In this document: positions 38,546-52,512 of the stretch, piece after piece
How positions within the stretch are numbered: the stretch's first letter is position 1
Layout: the number at the start of each line of letters is the position of its first letter
Assembly (NCBI RefSeq): GCF_900110605.1
Contig: NZ_FOFI01000005.1
Coordinates: 235,754 to 299,753 of the forward strand
DNA from: Epilithonimonas lactis
GTDB lineage: Bacteria > Bacteroidota > Bacteroidia > Flavobacteriales > Weeksellaceae
Length of the DNA: 64,000 nucleotides
Reading direction: 5' to 3'
The notes under the pieces: model-generated
The model's input: the letters and a program-made list of their open reading frames with translations, nothing else
Databases searched by the model: none
Told to the model about the DNA's origin: nothing
Made by a program: the position numbers and the translations under genes

Positions 38546-39613
38546 TTATAAAAAATCCAGCGGGCTTTTTACCTTGGTTTTAGAAATATCGGTAATGTGT
38601 GTATAAATCTGTGTCGTTCTGATAGAATTGTGCCCCAGAAGTTCCTGCAGGAAACGGATATCGGCTCCACTTTCCATCAGATGTGTCGCATAGGAATGGC
38701 GCAAACCGTGCACACCAATGCTTTTGTTGATCTTTGACTTCCTCATTGCTTGTTTGAAGACGCTCTGAACACTTCTAACCGTGTAGGCCCCGCCATATTG
38801 CCCTTCGAAGAGAAAATCTTTTGGGCGATATTCTTTGTAATAACTGCGGAGCAGTGTCAGGATAGACTCGGGCAAATTGGTATATCTGTCTTTTTTACCT
38901 TTGGCACCTGCAATGAGAACCAGCATATTCCCACTATTGATATGTTCGACTTTTAGATTCACAATCTCGCTTACACGCAATCCCATCCCATAGGAGAGCT
39001 TGAGCATCAGGAGATGTTTCTGATTTTCGGTGTTCTCAAATATTTTTCTAATCTCTGCCTGTGACAGCATTTTCGGAAGCTGTTTTGGGGTTTTGGGGCG
39101 CGGGATGTCAAAGAACATTTTGGATTTTTTGCGCACTTGCTCAAAATAGAATTTCACAGCATTGATCCTGCTATTCAAATGGTTTTCCTTGATTTTTTCT
39201 TTGTCGAGACAATAGAGGAAATAATCTTTCAACCTATCTTCTGAAAGATCGTCAACTGAAATTTTTTTTAGAATTCGTAGCAGATGTGCAAACTCTGTGA
39301 TATAGGTCCGGATGGTATTCTTGCTGTAGGCCTTTAATTTTAAGCAATCCACATAATCTGAGAATGCTTTTTGGTTTACCTGCTCTATCTCGGATCGTAT
39401 TTGGCTTCCCCACTCTTCCCGATCCAGCTTGAGTGCGTCCCTCAAGGTTGGGAGATCTGGCAAGTGCCAAGCCTTGTTGGTATTGCTCCACTTAGAAGAT
39501 GGGAATGCTTTTCGAAGTTCCTGGATCAAGACATCCTTCTTTTCGAAACGGATCCAAATGACGTTTTTGTCTCTATGATTTCCGAAGCTGAAATTGTATA
39601 AATCTAAATTCAT
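38546..39613 (-). CDS. Tyrosine recombinase, XerC/D-IntI-like, of the cassette array
   Basis: 355 residues from the ATG at 39613 (a GTG lies just before). An N-terminal extension of about 70 residues (FGNHRDKNVIWIRFEKKDVL) precedes the SAM-like core-binding domain (SDYVDCLKLKAYSKNTIRTY) and the catalytic domain. Active-site residues are all present: R213 (GMGLRVSEI), K240/K241 (AGAKGKKDRYT), H302-x-x-R305 (HGLRHSYATH), H328 (LGHNS) and Y337 (QIYTHI). The ending KVKSPLDFL is like the IntI ending VRSPLDAL. Between the Lys and HxxR boxes the length matches XerD, so the extra IntI segment seems absent. Its divergent position next to the array suggests it moves the cassettes. Confidence 0.93.
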   Translation of the reverse strand: MNLDLYNFSFGNHRDKNVIWIRFEKKDVLIQELRKAFPSSKWSNTNKAWHLPDLPTLRDALKLDREEWGSQIRSEIEQVNQKAFSDYVDCLKLKAYSKNTIRTYITEFAHLLRILKKISVDDLSEDRLKDYFLYCLDKEKIKENHLNSRINAVKFYFEQVRKKSKMFFDIPRPKTPKQLPKMLSQAEIRKIFENTENQKHLLMLKLSYGMGLRVSEIVNLKVEHINSGNMLVLIAGAKGKKDRYTNLPESILTLLRSYYKEYRPKDFLFEGQYGGAYTVRSVQSVFKQAMRKSKINKSIGVHGLRHSYATHLMESGADIRFLQELLGHNSIRTTQIYTHITDISKTKVKSPLDFL

Positions 39614-39755
39614 CACTTAAAATATTGTTATTCGCATTTTCAATAGATATAAACAGACCTAAAGCGAGGAGGAGAAAAAATCTATTCATAATGCGAAGTA
39701 TAAAAATAATAAAAAAACTAATGATTTCACCTATTTGTTGATAATATCAAAATAA

Positions 39756-39786
39756 TTTGTGGAATTGTTAGACTTTCGTATATTTG
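39756..39786 (+). promoter_or_regulatory. Cassette promoter (Pc-like) at the array edge
   Basis: TTTG (39756-39759), a 19-base spacer and TATATTTG (39779-39786) match the Bacteroidota consensus. It points into the array and ends 4 bases before the first crossover base. Transcription would start within the first bases of cassette 1 and could drive several promoterless cassettes. Confidence 0.7.
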
Positions 39787-39800
39787 AGTGTTAGCGGTAA
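39787..39800 (+). other. attI-like recombination junction
   Basis: AGTGTTAGCGGTAA, where GTTAGCG (39790-39796) has the GTTRRRY form. The cassette-side TTAGCGGTA is the reverse complement of TACCGCTAA at 40711-40719, the opening of the first attC-like site. The left side is unlike the attC-like sites, as expected for attI. Confidence 0.65.
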
Positions 39801-39824: not shown

Positions 39825-40706
39825 ATGAAATTATTTGAAATTGGAGACGGACTAAAATCTATAAAAGTATCGAGCAACTATTTTGCAGAAAGAGAAAATG
39901 ATGGAACAGTCATTTTATACGACCCTGAAATTGATTTTGCAGAAATCAGAGTTAGTGTAATTACGGTTGAACCTAAAGATAACTCGGATTTGCAGGCAAT
40001 GTATAGAAGAGTAATTGAATTAGCTAAAGAAAAGGAAATCGAAATAAATATTATCGATGAGAAAAGTTATTATAGTTATGTTGAACAAAACCAAAAAGAT
40101 GGCTTGACAATTTTCTATTTTGAAGTTGGCTATCTTAACCACCTTATTATAATTAGTGTTACAACTAACGCTGAGTATGCTCAAAATAATGAAGAGAATG
40201 TTGAAAATGTATTGAGTGATATTAACAGTTTTATATCTACTATAAAAGAAACAAATCTTGAAAGTCAAAACATTTTTGAACCAATATATAGTGATATTGA
40301 TGATATAAATGAAAGGATTAAAAAAATATTAAACATTAGTGAGGACGAAATAGATAACTATCACAATACCGACAAAACAATTCCTTTAATACAAAAAATC
40401 ATTAACGAAAATACATTTCAAGCTGACAATATATATGAACTTCAATCTTTAGGAATTGCTCTAGGAGATTATATTTCTCACAAAAATAATGACTTTCATT
40501 GGGCTGTAGTTAGAGATGAGTATGGAAGAGATATTTGTTTGCAATATAAAACATTAGCATTAACCATTTTTCCACTGACGATGATTTCCAAAAGAATTGA
40601 AGATGGAGAAAATGTGAATGTATCAGAATTATATTCTAACCTTTTGCACAAGATTAATGAATTATCAATTAGTGGAGATTTTGCAGAATTAGACCATAAT
40701 AATTAA
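39825..40706 (+). CDS. Cassette 1: DUF3805/DUF3806-like protein
   Basis: 293 residues with no signal peptide. The N-terminal half (KVSSNYFAERENDGTVILYD) resembles the DUF3805 domain and the C-terminal half (LGIALGDYISHKNNDFHWAV, RDEYGRDICLQYKTL) resembles DUF3806. Proteins with these domains are found near polymorphic toxin loci and may be immunity proteins; direct evidence is lacking. The gene starts 34 bases inside cassette 1 and is the first behind the Pc-like promoter, so it should be the best expressed of the array. Confidence 0.75.
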   Translation: MKLFEIGDGLKSIKVSSNYFAERENDGTVILYDPEIDFAEIRVSVITVEPKDNSDLQAMYRRVIELAKEKEIEINIIDEKSYYSYVEQNQKDGLTIFYFEVGYLNHLIIISVTTNAEYAQNNEENVENVLSDINSFISTIKETNLESQNIFEPIYSDIDDINERIKKILNISEDEIDNYHNTDKTIPLIQKIINENTFQADNIYELQSLGIALGDYISHKNNDFHWAVVRDEYGRDICLQYKTLALTIFPLTMISKRIEDGENVNVSELYSNLLHKINELSISGDFAELDHNN

Positions 40707-40713
40707 AAACTAC

Positions 40714-40845
40714 CGCTAACAAGGGTTTTGCAATAGTGGGGCGAAACTGCAAAGTTCAACGGTAGTTCTTCGATTCAACTTTTGTGCAAAATTGAAGTTT
40801 TGTGCTTCGATTGCCCCACCATCGCAAAGCCCCGAAACGTTAGCT
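40714..40845 (+). repeat. attC-like site 1
   Basis: 132 bp from CGCTAAC to GTTAGCT. Outer stem GGGTTTTGC/GCAAAGCCC and inner stem GTGGGGC/GCCCCAC enclose a variable loop with GTTCAACGGTAG and GCAAAATTGAAG. Serves as the reference copy. Confidence 0.85.
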
Positions 40846-40863
40846 ACAATATTATTAAACGCC

Positions 40864-41382
40864 GTGTTAAAAAGAATTTTTCAGATTTTTGTTTTATTAT
40901 TCAATTCATTTTTGTTTGGACAAAATGAACAAATTGCTATTACTGAAATTATAAAAATGAGTAAAATCCCGACATTCAACACATTTATTAATTCTGAGAT
41001 TTTAGTATACAAAAAACAAGACTTAACAAAATCTATTGCATTTACTTTATATGATTATTACTATTGCGATGTAAATAAAGCTAACGAAATTCTAAACATA
41101 CAAAAATTCAAGTTTGATTTTGAAGATTTGCCGATTTCTTATGAAAATGCTGAGACTGAAAAAGGTCTATTAAAACCAAAATTGAAATTCGATAAAAGAT
41201 TTTTAAAAAAGAATCAAAAATATATCGTTACAGTTTTTGAGTCAATAAAAGTTTCTGATTTTGAATATATAACAAGAATTAACTATTCCGAAAAATCTAA
41301 AAATTATATAACAACTAATTTTTATGTGCGAACAAATAAGTCAAAAGTCGTTGATATTTGTGAGCAAACAACAGAATTCTAA
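40864..41382 (+). CDS. Cassette 2: small secreted protein
   Basis: About 172 residues if translation starts at the GTG at 40864 (24 bases inside the cassette). Upstream in-frame codons belong to the attC-like site, so longer forms are unlikely. The start LKRIFQIFVLLFNSFLFGQ is a signal peptide cleaved after FGQ. The mature chain is beta-rich with no recognised domain (YYYCDVNKANEILNIQKFKF, LKFDKRFLKKNQKYIVTVFE). It probably goes to the periplasm or surface. Function unknown. Confidence 0.65.
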   Translation: MLKRIFQIFVLLFNSFLFGQNEQIAITEIIKMSKIPTFNTFINSEILVYKKQDLTKSIAFTLYDYYYCDVNKANEILNIQKFKFDFEDLPISYENAETEKGLLKPKLKFDKRFLKKNQKYIVTVFESIKVSDFEYITRINYSEKSKNYITTNFYVRTNKSKVVDICEQTTEF

Positions 41383-41391
41383 AAATACTGT

Positions 41392-41523
41392 AGCTAACAA
41401 GGGTTTTGCAATAGTGGGGCGAAACTGCAAAGTTCAACGGCAGTTCTTCGGTTCAACTTTTGTGCAAAATTGAAGATTTTTGCTTCGATTGCCCCACCAT
41501 CGCAAAGCCCCAAAACGTTAGCG
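41392..41523 (+). repeat. attC-like site 2
   Basis: 132 bp from AGCTAAC to GTTAGCG. TGTAGCTAAC mirrors the TTAGCTACA that opens cassette 2. Stems as in site 1. Confidence 0.85.
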
Positions 41524-41564
41524 GCAAGCACAAAACAACACTACAAAAGTATACAAATCACAAA

Positions 41565-42725
41565 ATGGAGAAAATAATTTTTGAACTATCAAACGAACAA
41601 CGACAATATTTAGGACTTACACCAGTTGAAAATAACTGGGAGCTTGTGAAATTATTTGACAGTTATGTATATTTTGATGGAGACATTATCCGTAAAGAAA
41701 TTACTGTTAATGAACAAGCCTATACCGAACGTGACCTTAATGAAAAAACAGCTGAACACAGAACCATTCTATTACCAAAAACAGAAAAAGGAAAACCAAA
41801 AAAGCTCAACTATACTGCTACACAATCCTTTAAAGGAATAGGTGTTTATTTTTCATTCTCAAGTGATTATCTGACTATCTCGAACTATACAACACAAACA
41901 ACTTATTACTCAGAAAATTTTGAAGATAAAAAACTTGACTACCTAAAAATTTGGTTAGAAAAATGGATTTCTGAGACAACTAGTGGAGATTTAGCGGAAA
42001 TTACAGCTTTTAAAAATGCAGACCGCAAACACTGTAAATTTCAGGAAGGCGACTTTTTTGCCTTTAAAATTGACAGAAGGAACTACGCTTTTGGTAGAAT
42101 TTTAATTGATGTTTCTAAACGAACAAAAACCGATAATCTAAAAGAAAATAAAAACTATGGCCTAACCCACTTAATGGGAAAAGCGCTAATTGTAAAACTC
42201 TATCACAAGATTAGCAATAATCTCGATGTTGATTTGAATGAATTATCAAAGACATTAGCTTTGCCATCACAAGCGGTTATGGATAATCAATTTTATTATG
42301 GAGAGAAATTTGTAATTGGACATAAATCACTTGAAATGTCAGAATATGATATGCTTATTTCTTACAGCAAAAGCATTAGTTCTGATGAAAAAAATCTCAT
42401 CTATCTACAGTACGGATTTATTTACAAAGAAATGAATATTTCAAAGTTTGATAAGTATTTAAAAATAGAAGATAAGAGTTTGTATGGTGGATACAACGAA
42501 AATCCATTTAGAAAAGAAGGAATCGGATTTGGTTTGGACATTGAAGAACTTAAAGAATGTATCGCAGAAAAATCTAATAAACCATATTGGAATAGTAACC
42601 ATAGATATGACATCAAATATGATTTGCGAAACCCAATCAACCTTGATACAAAAAGAGAAATATTTTCGGCTTTTGGACTTGATGCTGACAAAACGTACGA
42701 ACAGAACTTAGCGCTAACAAAATGA
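41565..42725 (+). CDS. Cassette 3: protein with Imm26-like segment
   Basis: 386 residues from the ATG at 41565, 48 bases inside the cassette. The central part, KFQEGDFFAFKIDRRNYAFG then RILIDV, looks like the GDvFaiPl...GRvl core of the Imm26 immunity family. The remaining parts (LSNEQRQYLGLTPVENNWEL at the N-terminus; YNENPFRKEGIGFGLDIEEL at the C-terminus) are unassigned. No signal peptide, so probably cytoplasmic. If Imm26-like, it would bind and block an incoming toxin; no toxin gene is adjacent. Confidence 0.65.
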   Translation: MEKIIFELSNEQRQYLGLTPVENNWELVKLFDSYVYFDGDIIRKEITVNEQAYTERDLNEKTAEHRTILLPKTEKGKPKKLNYTATQSFKGIGVYFSFSSDYLTISNYTTQTTYYSENFEDKKLDYLKIWLEKWISETTSGDLAEITAFKNADRKHCKFQEGDFFAFKIDRRNYAFGRILIDVSKRTKTDNLKENKNYGLTHLMGKALIVKLYHKISNNLDVDLNELSKTLALPSQAVMDNQFYYGEKFVIGHKSLEMSEYDMLISYSKSISSDEKNLIYLQYGFIYKEMNISKFDKYLKIEDKSLYGGYNENPFRKEGIGFGLDIEELKECIAEKSNKPYWNSNHRYDIKYDLRNPINLDTKREIFSAFGLDADKTYEQNLALTK

Positions 42726-42739
42726 CCGAAATTGCCAGC

Positions 42740-42872
42740 CGATAACAGGGGTTTTGCAATAGTGGGGCGAAACTGCAAAGTTCAACGGTAGTTCTTCGAT
42801 TAAACTTTTGTACAAAATTGAGGTTTTGTGGCTTCGATTGCCCCACCATCGCAAAGCCCCGAAACGTTATGT
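42740..42872 (+). repeat. attC-like site 3
   Basis: 133 bp from CGATAAC to GTTATGT. It has AACAGGGG in place of AACAAGGG, otherwise like site 1. The preceding cassette starts GTTAGCGGC and this site opens with GCCGATAAC: one mismatch. Confidence 0.8.
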
Positions 42873-42916
42873 GCAAGCTACAAAAAACACGCAAACAGAC
42901 ATTGACAAATTAAGAT

Positions 42917-43669
42917 ATGAGAACAGATACCGAATATGTTGATTTAGATTTTGAAGAATTTCAGAAAATAAATTCACCGTATGAACTTCATAAATTGGCT
43001 ATAAAATGCTACTTCTACATACAAGAATGGATTGTAGAAAGCAAAATTTGTAGTGAAGCAACTGCACTAATGTTGTTTTGGAACAACAATCCCTTTGAAC
43101 ATATTCGCATTGGTTGGAAAACAAGAAAAGGAACAAATGAAAACTTTGACCTAATCAAAACGATAATAACAAATTTTGAAAAAGGATTTTATCTAAAAAC
43201 CGATATCAGTTACGACCCATCAGAAAAGATTTCACAAGAAGAAAAAATTCCAAATATTGTATTACAACCAAGCAATGGAGAAGAACCATTTACTTATTTG
43301 GAAGAAAAAGAAGTGCATAGTTGGTTTGGAGAGTATCTACAAACACAAATTCACCGTTGCGACAGCACAATAGAATTATATAATATTGCATTATTTTTGA
43401 AGCACAGAGAATTTAACGTCTATACAACAATAATTGAGCACAAATTCTGTGATAAAGCGATTGCTCTATTAATCTATTGGCGACTTGAAAAATATTCCTC
43501 TTTAAGTTTGTATGCTGAAGATTGGTTTGAAATAAAGCCAATTATGGAACAAATAATTAAAAAACTTGAAAGCAATGAATATAAAGACGTTTTAGCTTAT
43601 GACCCAAACATAGAAATAAAGCCAATTAAGTGGGAAATCCCAAAGTATTTGTTTGACAAGATAATTTAA
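42917..43669 (+). CDS. Cassette 4: DUF4274-like repeat protein
   Basis: 250 residues, cytoplasmic. Two similar halves are visible: ELHKLAIKCYFYIQEWIVES with ATALMLFWNN, and ELYNIALFLKHREFNVYTTI with KAIALLIYWRLE. The pattern (L.(L/I)A ... (C)..A.AL(M/L)(L/I)(F/Y)W) is like DUF4274, a family seen among bacterial immunity-type proteins. Each half ends with a YDP...I segment (SYDPSEKI, AYDPNIEI), which strengthens the view of an internal duplication. The function is inferred only from this resemblance. Confidence 0.65.
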   Translation: MRTDTEYVDLDFEEFQKINSPYELHKLAIKCYFYIQEWIVESKICSEATALMLFWNNNPFEHIRIGWKTRKGTNENFDLIKTIITNFEKGFYLKTDISYDPSEKISQEEKIPNIVLQPSNGEEPFTYLEEKEVHSWFGEYLQTQIHRCDSTIELYNIALFLKHREFNVYTTIIEHKFCDKAIALLIYWRLEKYSSLSLYAEDWFEIKPIMEQIIKKLESNEYKDVLAYDPNIEIKPIKWEIPKYLFDKII

Positions 43670-43694
43670 ATAACAAAATATGGGATAAGCCTGC

Positions 43695-43826
43695 ACATAA
43701 CAAGGGTTTTGCAATAGTGGGGCGAAACTGCAAAGTTCAACGGTTGTTCTTCGGTTCAACCTTTGTGCAAAATTGAAGTTTTTTGCTTCGATTGCCCCAC
43801 CATCGCAAAGCCCCGAAACGTTAGCC
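43695..43826 (+). repeat. attC-like site 4
   Basis: 132 bp from ACATAAC to GTTAGCC. TGCACATAAC mirrors GTTATGTGCA at the start of cassette 4. Stems intact. Confidence 0.85.
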
Positions 43827-43843
43827 GTCATATTATCCAGACT

Positions 43844-44545
43844 ATGTACACTATTGGACAAACAAACCCTTTGACAGAAAGCGACATTCAAAATATTGAA
43901 CTGTTGACACCAATACCATTACCTTTAGATTATAAACAATTTCTAAAAAGTTATGGTTTTGGCAGTATAAATGAAATATTAATGATAACACAACCAGATG
44001 AGCAATACATAAAATTGAACTTTGGTGATTATTTGGACTTATGGAATTTGACTGAAATCGAAAAGGAAGAAACATTAAATGGACTTACAATTGCAACAAC
44101 AATTGATGGAGATATAATCATTGTAGTAAACAGTAAAGAAAATCCAATTAAACTATTGCCACGACATTCAAAAAATCCTTTACATTTTGATAATTTTCAA
44201 CAGGTTATAGACCATTATGACAATCAGTACCAATTCTTGAACGATTTGTACTTTGACACCTATTATAATTATGAACAAGAAAACATAAGTTTCATTAGAA
44301 ACGGAATACTCAACAAAGCTCTATTCAAAATAATCTATCAAAATATTCTTAATATTGTTTCCTACGAGAAAGTTTACAACCTTGAAAGCCAACCAAAATA
44401 TATTATTCAAAAAATTGGTGGTTGGATATACTTTGACAATATCAGTAAAAGCTCTATAAGAATAAAATTCCAAAGACAGCTCAAATCAGAAGCAGACAAA
44501 ATAATTGAGTATATTAATACCGAGATTGACAAATACGACGGCTAA
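43844..44545 (+). CDS. Cassette 5: SMI1/KNR4 (SUKH) family protein
   Basis: 233 residues from the ATG at 43844. The SUKH pattern is clear: LTPIPLPLDYKQFLKSYGFG, then INEILMI, a beta-rich core and GDIIIVVNSKENPIKLLPRH. SUKH proteins are the largest group of immunity proteins against contact-dependent and polymorphic toxins in bacteria. The stop TAA is formed by the site's first box (GGCTAAC). No toxin or secretion gene is nearby, so it is an orphan immunity candidate. Confidence 0.8.
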   Translation: MYTIGQTNPLTESDIQNIELLTPIPLPLDYKQFLKSYGFGSINEILMITQPDEQYIKLNFGDYLDLWNLTEIEKEETLNGLTIATTIDGDIIIVVNSKENPIKLLPRHSKNPLHFDNFQQVIDHYDNQYQFLNDLYFDTYYNYEQENISFIRNGILNKALFKIIYQNILNIVSYEKVYNLESQPKYIIQKIGGWIYFDNISKSSIRIKFQRQLKSEADKIIEYINTEIDKYDG

Positions 44546-44671
44546 CAAGGGTTTTGCAATAGTGGGGCGAAACTACAAAGTTCAACAGTTGTTCCGCGGT
44601 TCAACTTTTGTGCAAAATTGAAGATTTGCGCTTCGATTACCCCACCATCGCAAAGCCCCGAAACGTTATAG
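44540..44671 (+). repeat. attC-like site 5
   Basis: 132 bp from GGCTAAC to GTTATAG. GACGGCTAAC mirrors GTTAGCCGTC at the start of cassette 5. The loop half reads GTTCAACAGTTGTTCCGCGG; stems intact apart from a change in GATTACCCCACC. Confidence 0.85.
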
Positions 44672-44705
44672 GCCATTTAAAGACACACTTCCATAACATA
44701 GACGA

Positions 44706-45530
44706 ATGAAAACAAATTTTGAAAACTGGAATACAGAACTTGAAAAAGTTTGGAATTTAAAAACAGAAGAAGATTGTGTAAAATTTAGTGATTTAATGTA
44801 TTCATTAAATGGCGATGAAGATGAGACTTATCTAAATAAGCTAATTGACACTGTAAGATTAAAAGAAGATTTTGGACTTTATGAAAGTTTGTATAATGCA
44901 GTTTGGGCGTTCCCACCAGAATTGGTCGGGCAGATATTAGCCAAACGACTTCCTGAATTTCAAAAAAGAATAGGAAAATCTGACCAAGTTTTTAGATTTT
45001 ATATTCCAATTCCGAATAATGAAGATACATTGAACGGTTTTATAGAGGAAGCTAAAAATTGGACTACAACTGAAAAAAGAACTTCATTATCTGCTATAGA
45101 AAATTGGTTTGTAGAGGATGAAGAGTGGGAAACTGTTTTAAAAAAACTAGGCAAAACTATCTCAAAACCTAAAGAAGATGCTATTCCTGAATATTGGGAG
45201 GAAAATTGGAAAAGAAGATTTGAAGATGGTAGAAAAAAAGGTGGAGAATATTCTATAAGTGGTATATTTTGGAAAAAGGGAAAGAAGGAATGGCTTGAAG
45301 ATTTAGATTTCTTAATGGAAGTTTTAGCTTTAAATCTTGGTAAAGATTGGCGACAAATCGACACGATGACAAACGCTCTCTGGTTTTTTGCCAAAACTAC
45401 AGTTTATCCAATTTTTGTTCAAAAACTAAAAGAATTATCAATTGAAAAACAATCAAAAATTCTTGACAACATTAAGAAAGTTAATAAAAAGAAATTTAAA
45501 CAATTAAGTGAAGAAATAAACGGCATATAA
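44706..45530 (+). CDS. Cassette 6: uncharacterised cytoplasmic protein
   Basis: 274 residues, Trp- and Lys-rich, mostly helical (WNTELEKVWNLKTEEDCVKF, FPPELVGQILAKRLPEFQKR, VYPIFVQKLKELSIEKQSKI). No signal peptide or membrane segment and no family recognised. The size, solubility and position are like the other immunity-type cassettes, but that is only context. The stop TAA is part of the site's first box (ATATAAC). Confidence 0.7.
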   Translation: MKTNFENWNTELEKVWNLKTEEDCVKFSDLMYSLNGDEDETYLNKLIDTVRLKEDFGLYESLYNAVWAFPPELVGQILAKRLPEFQKRIGKSDQVFRFYIPIPNNEDTLNGFIEEAKNWTTTEKRTSLSAIENWFVEDEEWETVLKKLGKTISKPKEDAIPEYWEENWKRRFEDGRKKGGEYSISGIFWKKGKKEWLEDLDFLMEVLALNLGKDWRQIDTMTNALWFFAKTTVYPIFVQKLKELSIEKQSKILDNIKKVNKKKFKQLSEEINGI

Positions 45531-45656
45531 CAAGGGTTTTGCGATAGTGGGGCAAAACTGCAAAGTTCAAGAGTTGTGCTTCGGTTCAACATTTGTGCAA
45601 AATTGAAGATTTGTGCTTCGATTGCCCCACCATCGCAAAGCCCCAAAACGTTGGTG
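45525..45656 (+). repeat. attC-like site 6
   Basis: 132 bp from ATATAAC to GTTGGTG. It carries GCGATAGTGGGGCAAAAC in the left half; stems intact. GGCATATAAC against GTTATAGGCC: one mismatch. Confidence 0.85.
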
Positions 45657-45692
45657 GCAATATTAACCGAACAGACCTTAAAAACAGAAAAA

Positions 45693-46211
45693 ATGGAATT
45701 ACCGAAATTTAGATACAGTCCTAACGCATTCGAACTTGACATTTTCGAAAATGTAGAAGGAACCTGTTCTGTCTGCAATGAAAAAAGACAAATCAAATAT
45801 ACAAGTTCATTTTATAGCGTTGACGAACCCGAATATATTTGTCCTTGGTGCATCGCAGACGGAAAAGCATCGGAAAAATACGAGGGAGAGTTCAATGATT
45901 ATGAAGGAATTGAAAATTCAGAGAATATTGAAAAAGAACTTTTATTACAAGCAAGTGAAAGAACGCCAAGTTATACAAGTTGGCAACAAGAAGTTTGGCT
46001 AACACATTGTAACGAACCTTGTGCTTTTGTTGGGTATGCTGACACAAAGACGATAGAGCCTCTAATGGAAGAATTAAATGACGATATTGAAAATAATGGC
46101 TATGACCCTGATTTTATAAAAAGTAGTTTAACAAAAGACGGAAGTTTAGTTGGCTATTTGTTTCAATGTGTAAATTGTAACCAACACCGACTTCACGTTG
46201 ACTGTGACTAA
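45693..46211 (+). CDS. cbrC: Cassette 7: CbrC-family protein
   Basis: 172 residues from the ATG at 45693. MELPKFRYSPNAFELDIFEN, CSVCNEKRQIKYTSSFYSVD and YICPWCIADGKASEKY are the CbrC/UPF0167 pattern. C-terminal QCVNCNQHRLHVDCD and the earlier Cys pairs suggest zinc binding. E. coli CbrC is linked to tolerance of colicin E2, which fits the immunity-like content of this array. The cassette is bounded by one standard site and one divergent site. Confidence 0.85.
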   Translation: MELPKFRYSPNAFELDIFENVEGTCSVCNEKRQIKYTSSFYSVDEPEYICPWCIADGKASEKYEGEFNDYEGIENSENIEKELLLQASERTPSYTSWQQEVWLTHCNEPCAFVGYADTKTIEPLMEELNDDIENNGYDPDFIKSSLTKDGSLVGYLFQCVNCNQHRLHVDCD

Positions 46212-46228
46212 ATGAATAAAAATACTGC

Positions 46229-46360
46229 TACCAACAAGGGCTTGGCAATAGCGGGCTGAAAGTACAAAGTTCACGTTTTGTGCTTCGGTAGAAATTTATA
46301 TTTTAGTTGAAAGTTTCCGCTTCGGTTTGCCCGCCATCGCCAATCCCCGAAACGTTAGCG
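46229..46360 (+). repeat. attC-like site 7, divergent type
   Basis: 132 bp from TACCAAC to GTTAGCG. Both stem halves differ from site 1 but still pair: GGGCTTGGC with GCCAATCCC (one mismatch) and GCGGGC with GCCCGC. The loop is TTCACGTTTTGTGCTTCGG with TTAGTTGAAAGTTTCCG. Compensatory changes support folding. Confidence 0.8.
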
Positions 46361-46405
46361 GTCAGACTTAAAGAACGTAACGAGAACAACCTTACAAGAC
46401 ATTGA

Positions 46406-46927
46406 ATGAAATTTTGGATTAGAATAATTTTACTGACAATCATTGATTTTGCAATAATTTGGTTGTGGGTTAAACAAATGAACCCTGACCCAAGCGTTTC
46501 AATTGGAATTTTAATACTTGTTCCGTTTGTTGTTATCTTGAATTTGATTATTGCTTTGATTTTATACTTTATCAAAAAAGAATTTGTTTCTCTTTTTTTA
46601 GTCAATTCAATCATTGCTGGAATATTAATGTTCTATTTATTTGGTAAAGGCGTTGACAGATATCAAAATGAAAGACTAGAAAGTTGGAACTTTAGATTGC
46701 AAAATACGACCTATAATATTACACACTGGAAACTCGAAAACACTTTTAGTATGAGTGAAAGTAATAATCCCGGTTCTTCAACAGGTTTTTTAGACGGAAA
46801 ATTTATTAAAAAGGGAAACGAATATTATCTGCAGACAGACACAACTGAATTTATTATCAAAAACGGATATTTGTATAAATTTAGAAATGAAGGTGACAGT
46901 ATAAAATTGAACAAAATTAAAAGATAA
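46406..46927 (+). CDS. Cassette 8: membrane protein
   Basis: 173 residues. Three membrane segments occupy residues 1-85 (IILLTIIDFAIIWLWVKQ, ILILVPFVVILNLIIALILY, VSLFLVNSIIAGILMFYLF). The C-terminal 85 residues are soluble and beta-rich (WNFRLQNTTYNITHWKLENT, GKFIKKGNEYYLQTDTTEFI). Membrane immunity proteins of this size exist, but no family was recognised. Starts 51 bases inside the cassette. Confidence 0.7.
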   Translation: MKFWIRIILLTIIDFAIIWLWVKQMNPDPSVSIGILILVPFVVILNLIIALILYFIKKEFVSLFLVNSIIAGILMFYLFGKGVDRYQNERLESWNFRLQNTTYNITHWKLENTFSMSESNNPGSSTGFLDGKFIKKGNEYYLQTDTTEFIIKNGYLYKFRNEGDSIKLNKIKR

Positions 46928-46948
46928 TCACATGATTAAAAGCCCGAA

Positions 46949-47081
46949 CCGCTAACAAGGGCTTTGCAATAGTGGGGCGAAACTGCAAAGTTCAGCGGTA
47001 GTTCTTCGGTTCAACTTTTGTACAAAATTGAAGTTTTGCGCTTCGATTGCCCCACCATCGCAAAGCCCCGAAACGTTGTGA
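46949..47081 (+). repeat. attC-like site 8
   Basis: 133 bp from CGCTAAC to GTTGTGA. ACCGCTAAC mirrors GTTAGCGGT at the start of cassette 8. AAGGGCTTTGCAATAGTGGGGC pairs with GCCCCACC and GCAAAGCCCC; intact. Confidence 0.85.
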
Positions 47082-47129
47082 AATATGCTAACCAAACTTT
47101 CATCCAAATTTGAAACGATAAAAAACCAA

Positions 47130-47999
47130 ATGAAAAAATTATTATTACTATTTACATTATTAACTACACAAATTTTTGTTTTCGGACAAACAAAAGACCC
47201 TGAATTAATTCCTGTAAACGACAGAAAAGTTGGTCAACTTGGATATTATCTTGAGGACGGGACTAACGTTGTAAAGCCGCAATTTTGTTCGGCTTCTTAC
47301 AATACGAACGGATATTATATTGTATCAAAAGCAGAACATAAATATACAGCAGATGGAAGAAGAATTGAAGAACATATTGAAGGAACTGAAAAATACGGAT
47401 TACTTAACAGCAAAGGACAGTTTATAATCAATTTTGACAATGACTATAGTTCAATAATTGTAAGTAATGGAGTTATTGAAGTGTACAAAAATGGATTTGT
47501 TGGAATTGTGAATGATAAAAATGAGATTATAACTCCTATAATGTATGAAGATATAAATCCTCTGAACTCCTCATCAATTATTGCTACAAAACATAAAATG
47601 ACAGGAGTTATTAATAGTTTTAATAAAATAATAATACCTTTCAATTACGATGTAATTTGGATTGGGGTTTTTGAAAAAAATAAAGTTCATAATTTTATTG
47701 TAAAACAAGGAGAAAAATATGGCGTAATAAATCATAAAGGAGAAAAAATAATTCCACTAAGTAATAACAAGATAATACATGTTACACCATCTTCGATAAT
47801 TGTAGAAAAAGACAATCAATACGGAATTTTAGATTATAAGAGAAAAGTATTATTAGCTTTTAAGAAGTATGATAATGTAGAATATTTTGGAGGCAATGAA
47901 ATCAAATTCATTAAAAATTATGAGGAGTATATTTACGATACTAAAGGTAATTTTATAAGAAAGCAAAAAATAGAATTTTTAGAAAAATCAGCTTTTTAA
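47130..47999 (+). CDS. Cassette 9: secreted WG-repeat protein
   Basis: 289 residues from the ATG at 47130, which gives a clean signal peptide (KKLLLLFTLLTTQIFVFGQ); an ATG at 47085 would place 15 polar residues before it. At least five WG-type repeats follow: KYGLLNSKGQFIINF, FVGIVNDKNEIITPIMYEDI, MTGVINSFNKIIIPFNYDVI, KYGVINHKGEKIIPL and QYGILDYKRKVLLAF. WG repeats form beta-structures for protein binding. The protein is probably exported; role in the array unknown. Confidence 0.82.
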   Translation: MKKLLLLFTLLTTQIFVFGQTKDPELIPVNDRKVGQLGYYLEDGTNVVKPQFCSASYNTNGYYIVSKAEHKYTADGRRIEEHIEGTEKYGLLNSKGQFIINFDNDYSSIIVSNGVIEVYKNGFVGIVNDKNEIITPIMYEDINPLNSSSIIATKHKMTGVINSFNKIIIPFNYDVIWIGVFEKNKVHNFIVKQGEKYGVINHKGEKIIPLSNNKIIHVTPSSIIVEKDNQYGILDYKRKVLLAFKKYDNVEYFGGNEIKFIKNYEEYIYDTKGNFIRKQKIEFLEKSAF

Positions 48000-48019
48000 A
48001 ATGAAGTGAAAGCACAATC

Positions 48020-48149
48020 GCACAAAAGGGTTTTGCAATAGTGGGTTGAAACTGCAAAGTTCCAAAACTGTGCTTCAGTTCAGCTTTTATGCAAAATTGA
48101 AGATTTGTGCTTCGATTGCCCCACCATCGCAAAGTCCAGAACGTTATGC
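48020..48149 (+). repeat. attC-like site 9, damaged first box
   Basis: 130 bp. The first box reads GCACAAA instead of RYYYAAC, and GTGGGTTG replaces GTGGGGC, weakening the inner stem. It ends GTTATGC. Confidence 0.75.
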
Positions 48150-48157
48150 GATATTTT

Positions 48158-48756
48158 ATGAAAACAACGTCAATGAAACAAATTTTGGTGATTTTTATAA
48201 TATTAAATTCATTTGCTTGTAAACAAATGAATAAAGTTCCAAATAGAATAAACTCTATCGATGTCAAAATTTACGAAACAAATTTTATGACTAATAAAAT
48301 CAAAACGTCTGAAATTCCAAAAATTGAGAAAAAAAATAGTGGAGTTAAGTATACAAAGCCTATAAACAATTATCTTTCTAAAGATTACTTCCCTGATATA
48401 GATAAATATGATTTCGCACAACCTATAATTTATCAAAGAGATACACTAAATCTCAATACTGAAATTTCATATTATTTTACAAAAAAAGACAGCATTGTTC
48501 GTTTAATTGAGTATAGTTGGAATACGAATTGGGAAATAAAAAATCAAAAACCATTTATTAATGATTTGTACTCTCTTAACAATTCATTTATTGCGAAAAA
48601 AATGAAACAAAATAGTAAAGAAGAATTCCAAAAATTTAATAATGGTTGGAGAAAAAGTAAAAACTGGGAAAATCAAAAAATAAATATATATATAGTTTTG
48701 TTTTAGGTTCTGATAATGAGGGCCATAGAACAAGAGTTATAGTTCAACAGAAATAA
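48158..48756 (+). pseudogene. Cassette 10: lipoprotein gene with frameshift near the 3' end
   Basis: The intact frame (48158-48706) encodes 182 residues with a lipoprotein signal ending SFACKQ (Cys21). It stops at TAG shortly after an (AT)5A tract (48684-48694). Removing one AT unit joins the frame to an extra stretch ending in SFVLGSDNEGHRTRVIVQQK and TAA at 48756, just before the next site, where other cassette genes end. The gene is thus probably shifted by one dinucleotide. The protein, with or without the tail, has no recognised domain (PINNYLSKDYFPDIDKYDFA). Could be a phase-variable or a damaged gene, or a sequencing slip. Confidence 0.6.
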
Positions 48757-48766
48757 AAAAAATATC

Positions 48767-48898
48767 GCATAACAAGGGTTTTGCAATAGTGGGTTGAAAC
48801 TGCAAAGTTCCAAAACTGTGCTTCAGTTCAGCTTTTGTGCAATATTGAAGATTTGTGCTTCGATTGCCCCACCATCGCCAAGCCCTGAAACCTTACCT
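48767..48898 (+). repeat. attC-like site 10, non-consensus crossover base
   Basis: 132 bp from GCATAAC to CTTACCT. The last box has C where G is expected (48892). AAATATCGCATAAC is a 14-base mirror of GTTATGCGATATTT at the start of cassette 10. The inner stem is weakened by GTGGGTTG. Confidence 0.8.
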
Positions 48899-48966
48899 GC
48901 TATGTTCAGAGCGATCGTTAAATATAAGACCTTGACAAAAAATATTAATAATAATTTAATTGACAT

Positions 48967-49365
48967 ATGAGTTTTGATCTAGTTATTTGGAAACGTTCCG
49001 CAAGGACAAAAACCGCAATGCTTCAAGAATGTTATGACGCAATTATCGACCACAAAGACCATTCTGCTATGGATTTTTTTGAAGAAGACACTTTTTTGAA
49101 CGACTTTGAAATTGAGTTTGGTAAAAGACAGAAAGAACATTTTGGTAGCGATGTTGACAACTGCCCTTTTTTATTTTCTACAGGTCGTGGACAATTTGGA
49201 AATTGGGTTTTTATGAATTTAAATTGGTCGACACATCAAGACACGAAAAACAAAATAATTCCCATTGCTTTAAAACACGGACTAATGGTTTATGACCCAC
49301 AACAAAAAGCTGTTTGGGGTAACAAAAGACCGCCAAAAATTGTGACCGAAAATAACATAAAATAA
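48967..49365 (+). CDS. Cassette 11: uncharacterised cytoplasmic protein
   Basis: 132 residues. MSFDLVIWKRSARTKTAMLQ is reminiscent of a family of small proteins opening MSFDL..W, often found near SMI1-type genes. YDPQQKAVWGNKRPPKIV ends the chain. WVFMNLNWSTHQDTKNKIIP fits a compact alpha/beta fold. No function known. Starts 74 bases inside the cassette, the longest leader of the array. Confidence 0.7.
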   Translation: MSFDLVIWKRSARTKTAMLQECYDAIIDHKDHSAMDFFEEDTFLNDFEIEFGKRQKEHFGSDVDNCPFLFSTGRGQFGNWVFMNLNWSTHQDTKNKIIPIALKHGLMVYDPQQKAVWGNKRPPKIVTENNIK

Positions 49366-49421
49366 TAGACAACATTTTGAAATATATCATTCTTTGACAA
49401 TCCTACGAAGAATAACACAGC

Positions 49422-49554
49422 AGGTAACAAGGGTTTTGCAATAGTGGGGCGAAACTGCAAAGTTCAACAGTTGTTCCGCGGTTCAACTTTTGTGCAAAAT
49501 TGAAGATTTGTGCTTCGATCGCAAGCCCGAACGCAAAGCCACGAAACGTTGGCC
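49422..49554 (+). repeat. attC-like site 11, right stem half lost
   Basis: 133 bp from AGGTAAC to GTTGGCC. The right half reads CGATCGCAAGCCCGAACGCA instead of CGATTGCCCCACCATCGCA, so the inner stem GTGGGGC/GCCCCAC cannot form. The first box mirrors the start of cassette 11 (CTTACCTGCT with AGCAGGTAAC). Confidence 0.75.
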
Positions 49555-49601
49555 GTAATTTTATAAAAAAGCGCTGAACCAATAAAAGAAGAAAATAAAA
49601 A

Positions 49602-50114
49602 ATGGACGGAATAACTTACATAGAGAACTTTATAGACAACCCAACAGAATTATTCAATATTTTGATAACTAATGTGAAATGGGATGAACGAATGACTGCG
49701 CGAAAAACTGCAAGTTTTGGTAAAGCCTATAATTATTCACAAATTGACTATCCATATCAAGAATTTTTACATGAACTAAAAGTAATTATTGAGAAATTGA
49801 AACCAGTAATTGGATTTGAACCAAATAATTGCTTAGTAAATTTTTACATGGATGGAAAATCTAGTATGGGTTATCATTCCGACCAAACTGACATTTTAGA
49901 AACAGACACAGGAATTGCAATTGTTTCCATTGGAGAAGCAAGAGTTTTAAAATTTAGGAATATTGAAAACCCGGCGCAGTTCTTAACTTATGAATTAACA
50001 GCAGGTAGTTTAGTTTATATGACACAAGAAATTCAAAAAATTTGGAAGCATTCAATTCCAAAATCGGACACTGAAAATGGTAGAATTAGTTTAACTTTTA
50101 GACAAATGAAATAA
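49602..50114 (+). CDS. Cassette 12: AlkB-like 2-oxoglutarate/Fe(II) dioxygenase
   Basis: 170 residues. The iron triad is H92-x-D94 (GYHSDQTD) and H150 (KHSIPK), and the 2-oxoglutarate arginines are R161 and R167 in GRISLTFRQMK, matching the AlkB RxxxxxR ending. The N-terminal lid (WDERMTARKTASFGKAYNYS) has the substrate loop found in AlkB. Short for the family but apparently complete. It may repair alkylated bases or modify RNA; it would be the clearest metabolic or repair cassette in the array. Confidence 0.85.
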   Translation: MDGITYIENFIDNPTELFNILITNVKWDERMTARKTASFGKAYNYSQIDYPYQEFLHELKVIIEKLKPVIGFEPNNCLVNFYMDGKSSMGYHSDQTDILETDTGIAIVSIGEARVLKFRNIENPAQFLTYELTAGSLVYMTQEIQKIWKHSIPKSDTENGRISLTFRQMK

Positions 50115-50123
50115 AAAAACTAC

Positions 50124-50256
50124 CGCTAATAAGGGTATTGCAATAGTGGGGCGAAACTTCTAAAATTCACGCTTTGTGCTTCGGTTAAAATTTGTAGTTT
50201 AGTTTAAAGTTTCGGCTTCGGTTTGCCCACGATCACCAAGCCACAACTCGTTGTAC
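50124..50256 (+). repeat. attC-like site 12, diverged
   Basis: 133 bp from CGCTAAT to GTTGTAC. The left half is close to site 1 (GTGGGGCG); the loop and right half are like site 7 (TTCACGCTTTGTGCTTCGG, GTTTGCCCACGATCACCAAG). The first box ends in AAT rather than AAC. Confidence 0.75.
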
Positions 50257-50287
50257 GATATGCAAACCACCATCACGGACAAAGACT

Positions 50288-51039
50288 ATGGATGATAAAA
50301 AACCGACTGACAGAATTGTTGAAATCATAAAACCATATATTGAAAGCAAAGGATTTTTATATAAAAAAGGCCAAAAAGATTTTGTGCGAAAATTTAAATT
50401 AGGCAGGCAACGATTTAGTTTCAATTTTGACGGGCGAGGTGGATTAACTACAGTAAACTGCGGATTTTCATCTACTTTGATGAACTCATAAAACTCTTCA
50501 TAGAAATATTTGATAAAAGAACAGGCGATTGGAATTTTCAAATCGGTGCAAATAGATTAAAAGGAATTGACACAATTTTCGACGGAAATATAGGCTTTCT
50601 GTTTGATGAGAAATTCGGGAATATGCCTCTTTCTGAGAAATCAAAATATAGTTCTTATGAAGTACATCCTGAACACAAAATAAAACAAGGAACTGATTTT
50701 ATTATCAAAGCATTTGAATTGGATGCCGAGAACCATTTTAACACTATTGACAATTACGAAACTTTGTACGAAGCCTTTATACACGCAATAAAAGTAAGAA
50801 CCGGAAAACTCCCACAAACAACACCTTTTCTCAATCTAAATCTTCGGTATGATGATGAAAATTTGCTCTACTATTCTTTAATTCTTGCTTTATGCCTTAG
50901 CAAAGACACAACCGCAATGAATGAACTTGCAGAAAATATTTACAAAAGATATGTTGTTGGTATAAACGAAATTAAAGAAAATATACAGAAAATATATAAC
51001 TATGACAGAGCAGAGAACTTGAAGAATAGGCTATCATAA
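50288..51039 (+). pseudogene. Cassette 13: DUF4304-like gene broken by a frameshift
   Basis: The first frame (ATG at 50288) gives VEIIKPYIESKGFLYKKGQK, then FVRKFKLGRQRFSFNFDGRG and stops at 50491. The second frame is open from 50431 to 51039 and continues FIYFDELIKLFIEIFDKRTG, DWNFQIGANRLKGID and the rest. One missing T in the run at 50465-50468 would join them into about 250 residues. The N-terminal pattern is like DUF4304. The gene is therefore a pseudogene by a single-base loss, or the loss is a sequencing error. Confidence 0.65.
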
Positions 51040-51049
51040 AAGCACAGTC

Positions 51050-51182
51050 GCACAACAAGGGTTTTGCAGTCGCAGGCGGAAAGTCTAAAATTCACGCTTT
51101 GTGCTTCAATTGATATTTTGTATTTTAGTTAAAAGTTTTTGATACGATTTCAGCTACATCGCCAAGCCAAAAACCGTTATCG
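51050..51182 (+). repeat. attC-like site 13, strongly diverged
   Basis: 133 bp from GCACAAC to GTTATCG. AAGGGTTTTGCAGTCGCAGGCGG on the left and CATCGCCAAGCCAAAAACC on the right share only parts of the stems. The loop TTCACGCTTTGTGCTTC is of the site 7 type. Confidence 0.7.
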
Positions 51183-51209
51183 GCTATTATTCAAAAACGA
51201 ACGTGACAC

Positions 51210-52277
51210 ATGAAATGGGTAAATGACATAACGAAATTATTAGGCATTGACTTTCCGATTGTTCAAGCACCAATGTTTGGCGTCACAACACCAGAAATGG
51301 TTGCTAATACTGCAAACATTAACTGCTTAGGTTCACTTGCTTTGGGAGACCTTGACGCTGAAAAAAGTGTGGAGGCTATTCGCAAAACGAAACGACTCAC
51401 GAGTAAACCGTTCGCAGTAAACTTTTTTGCTCACAACATTCCCGAAATCACGGATACTTTGAAAGCTGATTATGTAAAAGCAAAAATATTTGTAGAGCAA
51501 TTAGCGAAGCAAAACAACTTGATCATAACTATTCCTGAGCTGGACGAATTAAAAATCAATAGTTATGATGAACAAGTTGATGCCATCATTTCCGAAAATT
51601 GCAAAATTGTAAGTTTCACTTTTGGCAATCTTGACAAGCGAAGTATTGAAAAATTGAAAAGCAGTGGAACGGTTTTAATTGGCACTTGCACTTCAGTAGC
51701 CGAAGCAATGATTTTAGAAAAATCAGGAATTGACATTATTTGTGTACAAGGTTTGGAAGCAGGCGGACACAGAGGAAGTTTTGCTTTAGAAGATATTCCT
51801 AAAATTGGTGGTTTATCTTTATTGGCACAAGTAAGTGAAGCTATAAAAATACCAATCATTTACGCAGGGGGGATTTACAACTCAAAAACGTTATTAGCTT
51901 CAAAAACATTAGGTGCAAGTGGCTTTCAAATCGGAAGTTTGTTGTTGGGTTCTGCAGAAAGTGCGTTGGCAGATTTTGAAAAAAAACGATTGAGAAAAGT
52001 GAACGAATCCGAGATTATTCTGACAAAAAGTTTTTCGGGACGTTTTGCAAGAGGAATAAAGAATACATTCATAAATGCAACCGAACAAACAGAATTCATT
52101 TTGCCTTATCCCTACCAAAACAAACTAACAAGTGAATTGCGAAGAGTAGCAAAATACAATAAAAATGCAGACTTCGTGAATATCTGGGTTGGACAATCTA
52201 TCAATGAATTTAGTGGACAATCAACAGCAAAAATCATCCAAAACTTAATTGAACAAACAGAATGTGACAGTCGATAA
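51210..52277 (+). CDS. Cassette 14: nitronate monooxygenase-like flavoprotein
   Basis: 355 residues of the NMO/2-nitropropane dioxygenase TIM barrel. Opens MKWVNDITKLLGIDFPIVQAP; the FMN-binding patterns are GLEAGGHRGSF and IPIIYAGGIYNSKTLLASKT with GASGFQIGSLLLGS. It probably oxidises nitronates or related compounds, or acts as an NADH:quinone-type oxidoreductase. It is the last cassette; its stop TAA is part of the CGATAAC box of a truncated site. A metabolic gene, unlike most of the array. Confidence 0.9.
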   Translation: MKWVNDITKLLGIDFPIVQAPMFGVTTPEMVANTANINCLGSLALGDLDAEKSVEAIRKTKRLTSKPFAVNFFAHNIPEITDTLKADYVKAKIFVEQLAKQNNLIITIPELDELKINSYDEQVDAIISENCKIVSFTFGNLDKRSIEKLKSSGTVLIGTCTSVAEAMILEKSGIDIICVQGLEAGGHRGSFALEDIPKIGGLSLLAQVSEAIKIPIIYAGGIYNSKTLLASKTLGASGFQIGSLLLGSAESALADFEKKRLRKVNESEIILTKSFSGRFARGIKNTFINATEQTEFILPYPYQNKLTSELRRVAKYNKNADFVNIWVGQSINEFSGQSTAKIIQNLIEQTECDSR

Positions 52278-52400
52278 CAAGGGTTTATCTCATTATTATC
52301 TATTGTTTTTTTAGGTTTCGATGATTGCCTTGCAGTTTGCATCTCGCGGGCTAAGTACTAAATTCAACGGTAGTTGCTCAATCAAAATTTTATCTTAACT
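52272..52400 (+). repeat. Truncated attC-like site 14 and remnant
   Basis: Opens CGATAACAAGGGTTT like the other sites, then diverges completely. A remnant at about 52349-52394 (GCGGGCTAAGTACTAAATTC, then AACGGTAGTTGCTCAATCAA) resembles the left arm and loop of another copy. No right-hand GTTRRRY box was found, so the array ends here. The rest of the spacer up to 52512 holds nothing recognisable. Confidence 0.6.
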
Positions 52401-52512
52401 TTATTAATAATAATTGATGACGATTTTCGCCGACTTTAATTTTCAAAGTGATAATTGATGTAATAATCCTTCATTAATCATTAAAAATTTGAAACACTTT
52501 AAACACAACGAG

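Follow-up and report, generated by a model that had tools for sequence, protein, structure and literature searches.

A cassette array in Epilithonimonas lactis beside an integron-type recombinase without the I2 helix: probably a sedentary chromosomal integron of a distinct type

Can an integron exist when its integrase lacks the segment that is taken to make integrons possible? In canonical integrons, the I2 helix of IntI docks the extrahelical bases (EHBs) of attC and prevents a second strand exchange (PMC7790495; PMC4792948). I2 is regarded as the innovation that enabled integrons, and its profile is used by integron finders to recognise integrases. In the published view I2 is required for integron function (PMC8138268; PMC7790495), which counts against an integron without it, and Ghaly et al. 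treat the IntI-specific domain as defining. Escudero et al. have remarked on a 'lack of intermediates' (PMC7790495), and they speak of a 'chicken-egg paradox' (PMC4792948). The question is raised by a recombinase gene in a 64,000-nucleotide stretch of the E. lactis contig NZ_FOFI01000005.1 (the window). From its sequence, we consider the locus likely to represent a type of sedentary chromosomal integron without the IntI-specific I2 helix.

The ORF of the recombinase is open from an ATG that gives 355 residues, with an alternative GTG one codon upstream. A preliminary description of this DNA had listed six catalytic residues, a SAM-like domain and an IntI-like ending, all of which were found again. 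The R-K-H-R-H/W-Y set of tyrosine recombinases is complete (R213, K238, H302, R305, H328 and Y337 in the 355-residue numbering), Pfam gives Phage_int_SAM_4 as well as Phage_integrase (E 1e-37), and the end KVKSPLDFL aligns with VRSPLDAL of IntI1. The SPLD tail is common to IntI, and by analogy the C-terminal helix may dock between monomers here too, a role that helix N has in IntI (PMC7790495). VchIntIA (2a3v) was the closest solved structure in a Foldseek search, and with VIA-align IntI was tied with XerA and XerH as the nearest folds.

The same description had stated that the IntI segment is missing and that the spacing of the active site is that of XerD, and this holds. The catalytic Lys and His are separated by 63 residues, versus 105 in 16/16 canonical IntI (IntI1 plus 15 proteins of the host's phylum); the spacing is 64-72 in Xer-type proteins and 71 in the host's own Xer-like protein (L002). 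Direct alignment to IntI1 reveals no intact IntI segment, which falls into one large gap. The integron integrase model TIGR02249 gives 183 bits, below its cut-off of 265, and its match is split over two stretches; model positions from about 180 to 238 have no match in relatives. Because of the spacing, the single gap and the split match below the cut-off, we regard the I2 segment as absent and not merely diverged. The window recombinase thus lacks the additional domain with the I2 helix that marks canonical IntI.

The recombinase gene is divergent from an attI-like site, a putative promoter and a cassette array (Table 1), none of which the preliminary description had mentioned, and which confirm a link to cassette arrays. 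A tyrosine recombinase gene beside attI and an array of cassettes is the arrangement expected of an integron. The array consists of 13 attC repeats of 129-131 nt and a degenerate 14th, with 14 one-directional cassettes of 0.66-1.35 kb and one plus-strand ORF in each cassette interval. The repeats have the form YTAACAAGGG...CCCCGAAACGTTR, which is the shape of attC. A covariance model, in whose building the window sites were among those used, finds the 13 repeats at E 1e-23 to 1e-42, values well outside chance. No known RNA family was matched. The cargo includes immunity-type proteins (Imm26, SUKH), UPF0167, an AlkB-like oxygenase and a nitronate monooxygenase, and most other cassettes have no family. 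Cassette 7 matches DNA of a different genus (90% over 458 nt); the stem finder saw no attC beside that match, and sharing of this cassette across genera was set aside.

Table 1. Positions in the window of the recombinase gene, the intergenic elements and the cassette array
Feature	Position	Strand	Basis
I2-less integron-type tyrosine recombinase, 355 aa (stop 38546-38548)	38546..39613	-	ORF, profile, structure
C-terminal tail KVKSPLDFL, common to IntI	38549..38575	-	alignment
Lys238-His302 stretch (I2 missing)	38708..38902	-	spacing, IntI1 alignment
N-terminal extension, residues 1 to ~77, bba-bba fold (predicted), W-containing motif; absent from clade B	39383..39613	-	predicted structure, alignment
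Inverted repeat TTCGCATT (39631) / AATGCGAA (39690), between integrase and attI	39631..39697	.	conserved in related genomes
Pc-like Bacteroidota promoter (putative), TTTG-N19-TATATTTG, overlaps attI	39756..39786	+	sequence match
attI-like site TATATTTGAGTG^TTAGCGGTA, crossover inferred between 39790 and 39791	39779..39799	+	
Cassette 1 ORF (DUF3806)	39825..40706	+	ORF, Pfam
attC 1	40712..40850	+	repeat, covariance model
Cassette 2 ORF (no Pfam match)	40870..41382	+	ORF, Pfam
attC 2	41390..41528	+	repeat, covariance model
Cassette 3 ORF (Imm26 immunity-like)	41565..42725	+	Pfam
attC 3	42738..42877	+	repeat, covariance model
Cassette 4 ORF (DUF4274)	42917..43669	+	Pfam
attC 4	43693..43831	+	repeat, covariance model
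Cassette 5 ORF (SMI1/KNR4-SUKH)	43850..44545	+	Pfam
attC 5	44538..44676	+	repeat, covariance model
Cassette 6 ORF (no Pfam match)	44706..45530	+	ORF, Pfam
attC 6	45523..45661	+	repeat, covariance model
Cassette 7 ORF (UPF0167)	45696..46211	+	Pfam
attC 7	46227..46365	+	repeat, covariance model
Cassette 8 ORF (no Pfam match)	46406..46927	+	ORF, Pfam
attC 8	46948..47086	+	repeat, covariance model
Cassette 9 ORF (WG repeats)	47085..47999	+	Pfam
attC 9	48017..48154	+	repeat, covariance model
Cassette 10 ORF (no Pfam match)	48146..48706	+	ORF, Pfam
attC 10	48765..48903	+	repeat, covariance model
Cassette 11 ORF (no Pfam match)	48967..49365	+	ORF, Pfam
attC 11	49420..49560	+	repeat, covariance model
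Cassette 12 ORF (2OG-Fe(II) oxygenase, AlkB-like)	49602..50114	+	Pfam
attC 12 (diverged)	50122..50261	+	repeat, covariance model
Cassette 13 ORF (no Pfam match; gene may be broken upstream)	50623..51039	+	ORF, Pfam
attC 13 (diverged)	51048..51187	+	repeat, covariance model
Cassette 14 ORF (nitronate monooxygenase)	51210..52277	+	Pfam
Degenerate attC 14, AGTCGATAACAAGGG	52269..52421	+	sequence; weak model matches 52336-52421

Related genomes indicate where cassettes enter. Four relatives (L011-L014) have an integrase 85-94% identical to that of the window and also share the flanking glycogen-gene neighbourhood. In L011-L013, homology with the window ends at 39792, 39793 and 39801, at or just past the G^TT; in L014 the local alignment ends at 39830, and the first cassette of L014 opens with a similar R box. 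The DNA beyond the G^TT is different in each related genome, and this alternative occupancy in five genomes places insertion at attI between G and TT. The attI site is conserved beside the integrase gene in many genera, and its motif GCGTAnATTTGnnnGTT is found upstream of integrases from two different clades. The putative Pc-like promoter was assigned by its match to TTTG-N19-TATATTTG, which we take to be the Bacteroidota promoter consensus, and its -7 box is conserved in relatives. The inverted repeat between the integrase gene and attI is kept in related genomes while the surrounding sequence changes; it may serve the integrase as accessory sites or act as an operator for its gene.

The ends of the cassettes bear on how attC is used. 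In the window array the first 10 nt of a cassette are complementary to its own last 10 nt (R''/R'). At positions 5-10, 66/78 matches were counted within the own cassette and 26 in the neighbour-cassette control; permutation gave a mean of 33.7 and a maximum of 56, so that 0/100,000 permutations were as high as observed. In the degenerate attC 14, AGTCGATAACAAGGG is complementary at 9/10 positions to the cassette start GTTATCGGCT directly after attC 13. The complementarity was repeated in L014 (p 0.001), in L056 (p 0.0002) and in L026, whose attC sequence is unrelated (p 0.008; 5/5 testable cassettes match 10/10), while the tests in L037, L050, L052, L061, L059, L063, L041 and L035 were too small or mis-registered for significance. 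The R''/R' pairing is therefore specific to the cassette, as in integrons. Because the cassette ends covary by base pair, they point to a folded attC. When the sites were reconstituted and folded with DNA parameters, the bottom-strand hairpin was more stable than the top-strand one in 11/13, with one tie and one reversal.

Since I2 is reported to dock EHBs, the attC stems of the two groups were compared. In 20 arrays of I2-less integrases, the L'' half contained no EHB in 59/65 sites, one in 5 and two in 1. In 10 canonical integrons of the same phylum, 34/34 attC had 1-4 EHBs, and 32 of these 34 had two or three. Under one rule for both groups, the contrast of 6/65 vs 34/34 sites gives p=1e-20, or p=1e-6 by loci (20 vs 10); here two sister clades are compared, the sites of one clade are not independent of each other, the sample is dominated by R1-like sites and those of L026 often have one extra base. 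Neutral scoring of sites picked by repetition only found no EHB in 49/63 I2-less vs 0/32 canonical sites, and thermodynamic folding gave 38/60 vs 0/31. The confident attC sites of the window have no EHB, unlike those of canonical integrons. In both groups the spacer is longer by 3-4 nt on the prime side. As read from the stems, the missing I2 is thus matched by a change in the DNA, namely attC stems without EHBs, and integrons seem able to exist without the I2-EHB lock and key.

An alternative is that this integron integrase acts in a Xer-like manner on double-stranded attC via the L'/R' half-site only, an option that the preliminary description had left open. The Xer-like catalytic spacing and the absence of I2 would fit. 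Moreover, I2-bearing IntI1 still recombines double-stranded attI, and bulge-free stems resemble double-stranded DNA, as in the hairpin of CTXphi used by XerC (PMC4792948). If only the L'/R' half-site were used, however, R'' could drift freely, yet in arrays with unrelated attC it follows the start of the cassette over 10 nt. In addition, the stem differences of I2-less sites wobble-pair more often in the bottom strand than in the top (104 vs 39; 4 vs 4 in canonical sites). We consider recombination of double-stranded attC unlikely; the R''/R' complementarity and the stabler bottom-strand hairpin point instead to a folded single-stranded attC.

The architecture of the platform, the breakpoints at attI, the R''/R' complementarity, the absence of I2, the absence of EHBs and the absence of another integron integrase are read from the sequence. 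For an integron with a folded attC, we infer the following working from them. At attI the recombinase would insert circular cassettes between the G and the TT (39790/39791), immediately behind the putative promoter, and at attC it would excise or shuffle them. The substrate would be single-stranded attC in its folded form, probably the bottom strand, and the choice of strand may come from two conserved asymmetries, the longer prime-side spacer (3-4 nt) and T.G wobbles, which form pairs in the bottom strand only. A second cleavage would be avoided without the grip of I2 on EHBs, by these asymmetries or perhaps in the way reported for XerC acting on the hairpin of CTXphi.

Recombinases of this kind are widespread. 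An alignment-based search found the I2-less family in 81/149 sampled Bacteroidia genomes, and the lengths of the matches are too short for a 42-residue insert. attC sites occurred in 86/120 Weeksellaceae genomes; 64 of the 120 had integrase and attC, 3 integrase only, 22 attC only and 31 neither (Fisher p=4e-11). In 18/20 contigs, the 20 being those with listed coordinates for both integrase and attC, the attC nearest in the list lay upstream and divergent of the integrase at 0.4-16 kb. No canonical IntI over the TIGR02249 cut-off was found in the host genome or in the genomes of 18 relatives, most of which have arrays. Of 296 genomes sampled from the phylum, 84 had a canonical IntI with I2, a type nearly absent from the class of the window (only G037); the I2-less family showed the reverse.

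It might be argued that the array is a remnant or is acted on in trans (CALIN) and that an unrelated tyrosine recombinase adjoins it by chance. The 22/86 attC-bearing Weeksellaceae genomes without a detected integrase of the I2-less kind, the other attC sites of the host on contig 10 and elsewhere on contig 5, and the degenerate last members of the array are consistent with this idea. Chance proximity, however, would leave the co-occurrence of integrase and attC and their conserved divergent position without a cause, and attI is kept beside a gene whose catalytic residues are intact. Besides, the host and the 18 genomes contain no other candidate integrase. We therefore regard the array as the partner of the adjoining recombinase and a relic or in trans array as very unlikely. 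No tRNA lies within the window, and placement on a tRNA-targeted island, which the preliminary description had weighed against its own reading, was ruled out.

The preliminary description had also proposed to place the protein in a tree. Proteins of the window type and canonical IntI formed a group that leaves out the Xer and archaeal rows (100/99), canonical IntI formed a clade of its own (100/99), and the window protein was outside that clade. On this tree the I2-less family is a sister lineage of IntI. An I2-less protein of Peregrinibacteria (L068) stood beside canonical IntI (99/96). The remaining I2-less proteins formed one group with weak support (84/87) that contains several strong subclades, and a single clade for all I2-less proteins including L068 was not rejected (p-AU 0.19). 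Clade A includes the window recombinase, clade B (Chryseobacterium, Pedobacter, Saprospiraceae; L035, L041, L049, L056) has no N-terminal extension, and clade D (Winogradskyella, Pontibacter, Bacteroides and others) has attC-like families of its own. A decaying pseudo-integrase, that is, a degenerate IntI which lost I2 secondarily and recently, would fit the absence of I2 taken alone, but several clades and many families all without I2, with identical spacing of 63-64 and intact active sites, outside the canonical IntI clade and in more than half of the Bacteroidia genomes sampled, make it the least credible reading. The proposal of a distinct type of cassette recombinase is borne out, since the protein has no IntI segment, is outside the IntI clade and is tied to an array. 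L068 was considered as an argument that attC came before I2; it cannot show this because the stem finder saw no attC on its contig, and the argument was set aside. Other I2-less members outside Bacteroidota are L058 (Nomurabacteria) and L030 (Spirochaetaceae), and no attC was seen on their contigs either.

The N-terminal extension of about 70 residues was noted earlier and does exist, with a predicted fold of its own (beta-beta-alpha-beta-beta-alpha; mean pLDDT about 85-90 over residues 1-60). A Foldseek search limited to the extension yielded no fold match below E 0.5. The Pfam family HARP was matched below threshold in one relative only (E 0.0094), and had no match in the window protein. The suggestion that the extension replaces the IntI segment fails as a general rule, because the clade B proteins have neither segment nor extension and yet stand beside attC arrays of the same family. 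The extension may add DNA binding, and it is not required across the wider family.

The locus shares with canonical integrons (IntI1, VchIntIA) the divergent integrase gene, attI with a putative promoter, attC of the TAACAA...CGTTR type, the G^TT boundary, a central spacer that is unpaired and has its longer side on the prime strand, R''/R' pairing, the SPLD tail and 2a3v as the nearest fold. It differs from them in the lack of I2, the score below the TIGR02249 cut-off, the attC stems free of EHBs, the N-terminal extension and the separate clade. XerC/XerD and archaeal XerA resemble the enzyme in their two-domain architecture without I2, and its best NCBIfam model is XerA (NF040815, 201 bits, cut-off 220); however, all Xer equivalogs score below cut-off, and the window enzyme is tied to a cassette array whereas Xer proteins are tied to a dif site. 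The CTXphi hairpin recombined by XerC, as described in the paper, is likewise a folded single-stranded stem without EHBs handled by an enzyme without I2, but it serves phage integration at dif by host Xer proteins and involves no cassettes (PMC4792948). For the 'Integron-like' subgroup of Smyshlyaev et al. (2021), the insertion is stated to be essential for integron function, and the accessible part of that paper links no I2-less member to cassette arrays. Our literature search, which covered journal papers, few of them from subscription titles, found no description of I2-less integrons. The array is integron-like and the enzyme fails the test that defines IntI; on the sequence evidence, we judge the locus to be a genuine integron, of an I2-less, EHB-less type that is undescribed.

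These results may imply two sister forms of integrons, one with I2 and EHBs that comprises all known IntI, and a widespread one without either that is centred on Bacteroidia, and we lean slightly towards this idea. If it is true, cassette capture with folded attC would predate I2, the published chicken-and-egg problem of the joint origin of I2 and EHBs would be resolved, and the I2-less form would select the strand and prevent second cleavage by a different mechanism. The lineage offers living cassette systems without I2, with attC that lack the bases gripped by I2, so the origin of I2 can be tested directly. Within Bacteroidetes proper, Salinibacter ruber is the only species for which IntegronFinder 2.0 listed complete integrons (PMC9024848). 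In view of the numbers of Bacteroidia and Weeksellaceae genomes given above, a large reservoir of mobile genes may therefore escape surveys.

Several further observations were made. I2-less integrases stand beside quite different attC-like families (L026:11897-16354; L051, L059, L061, L063 and L064; L037 and L045; L050 and L052), which look like separate attC lineages, and very short attC-like sites (about 40-60 nt) occur in Pontibacter, Bacteroides and Phocaeicola. A plasmid of Chryseobacterium oryzae (L121; NZ_CP094530.1, 38318-39361) encodes an I2-less integrase that belongs to this superfamily (42% identity); its neighbours include an IS91-family transposase and another tyrosine recombinase, and no clear attC array lies nearby. 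Further attC sites of the host lie away from the integrase at C10:3488-4853 (L003) and C5:304800-305918, one of them directly upstream of a transposon-type tyrosine recombinase ORF. These are probably attC clusters without an integrase.
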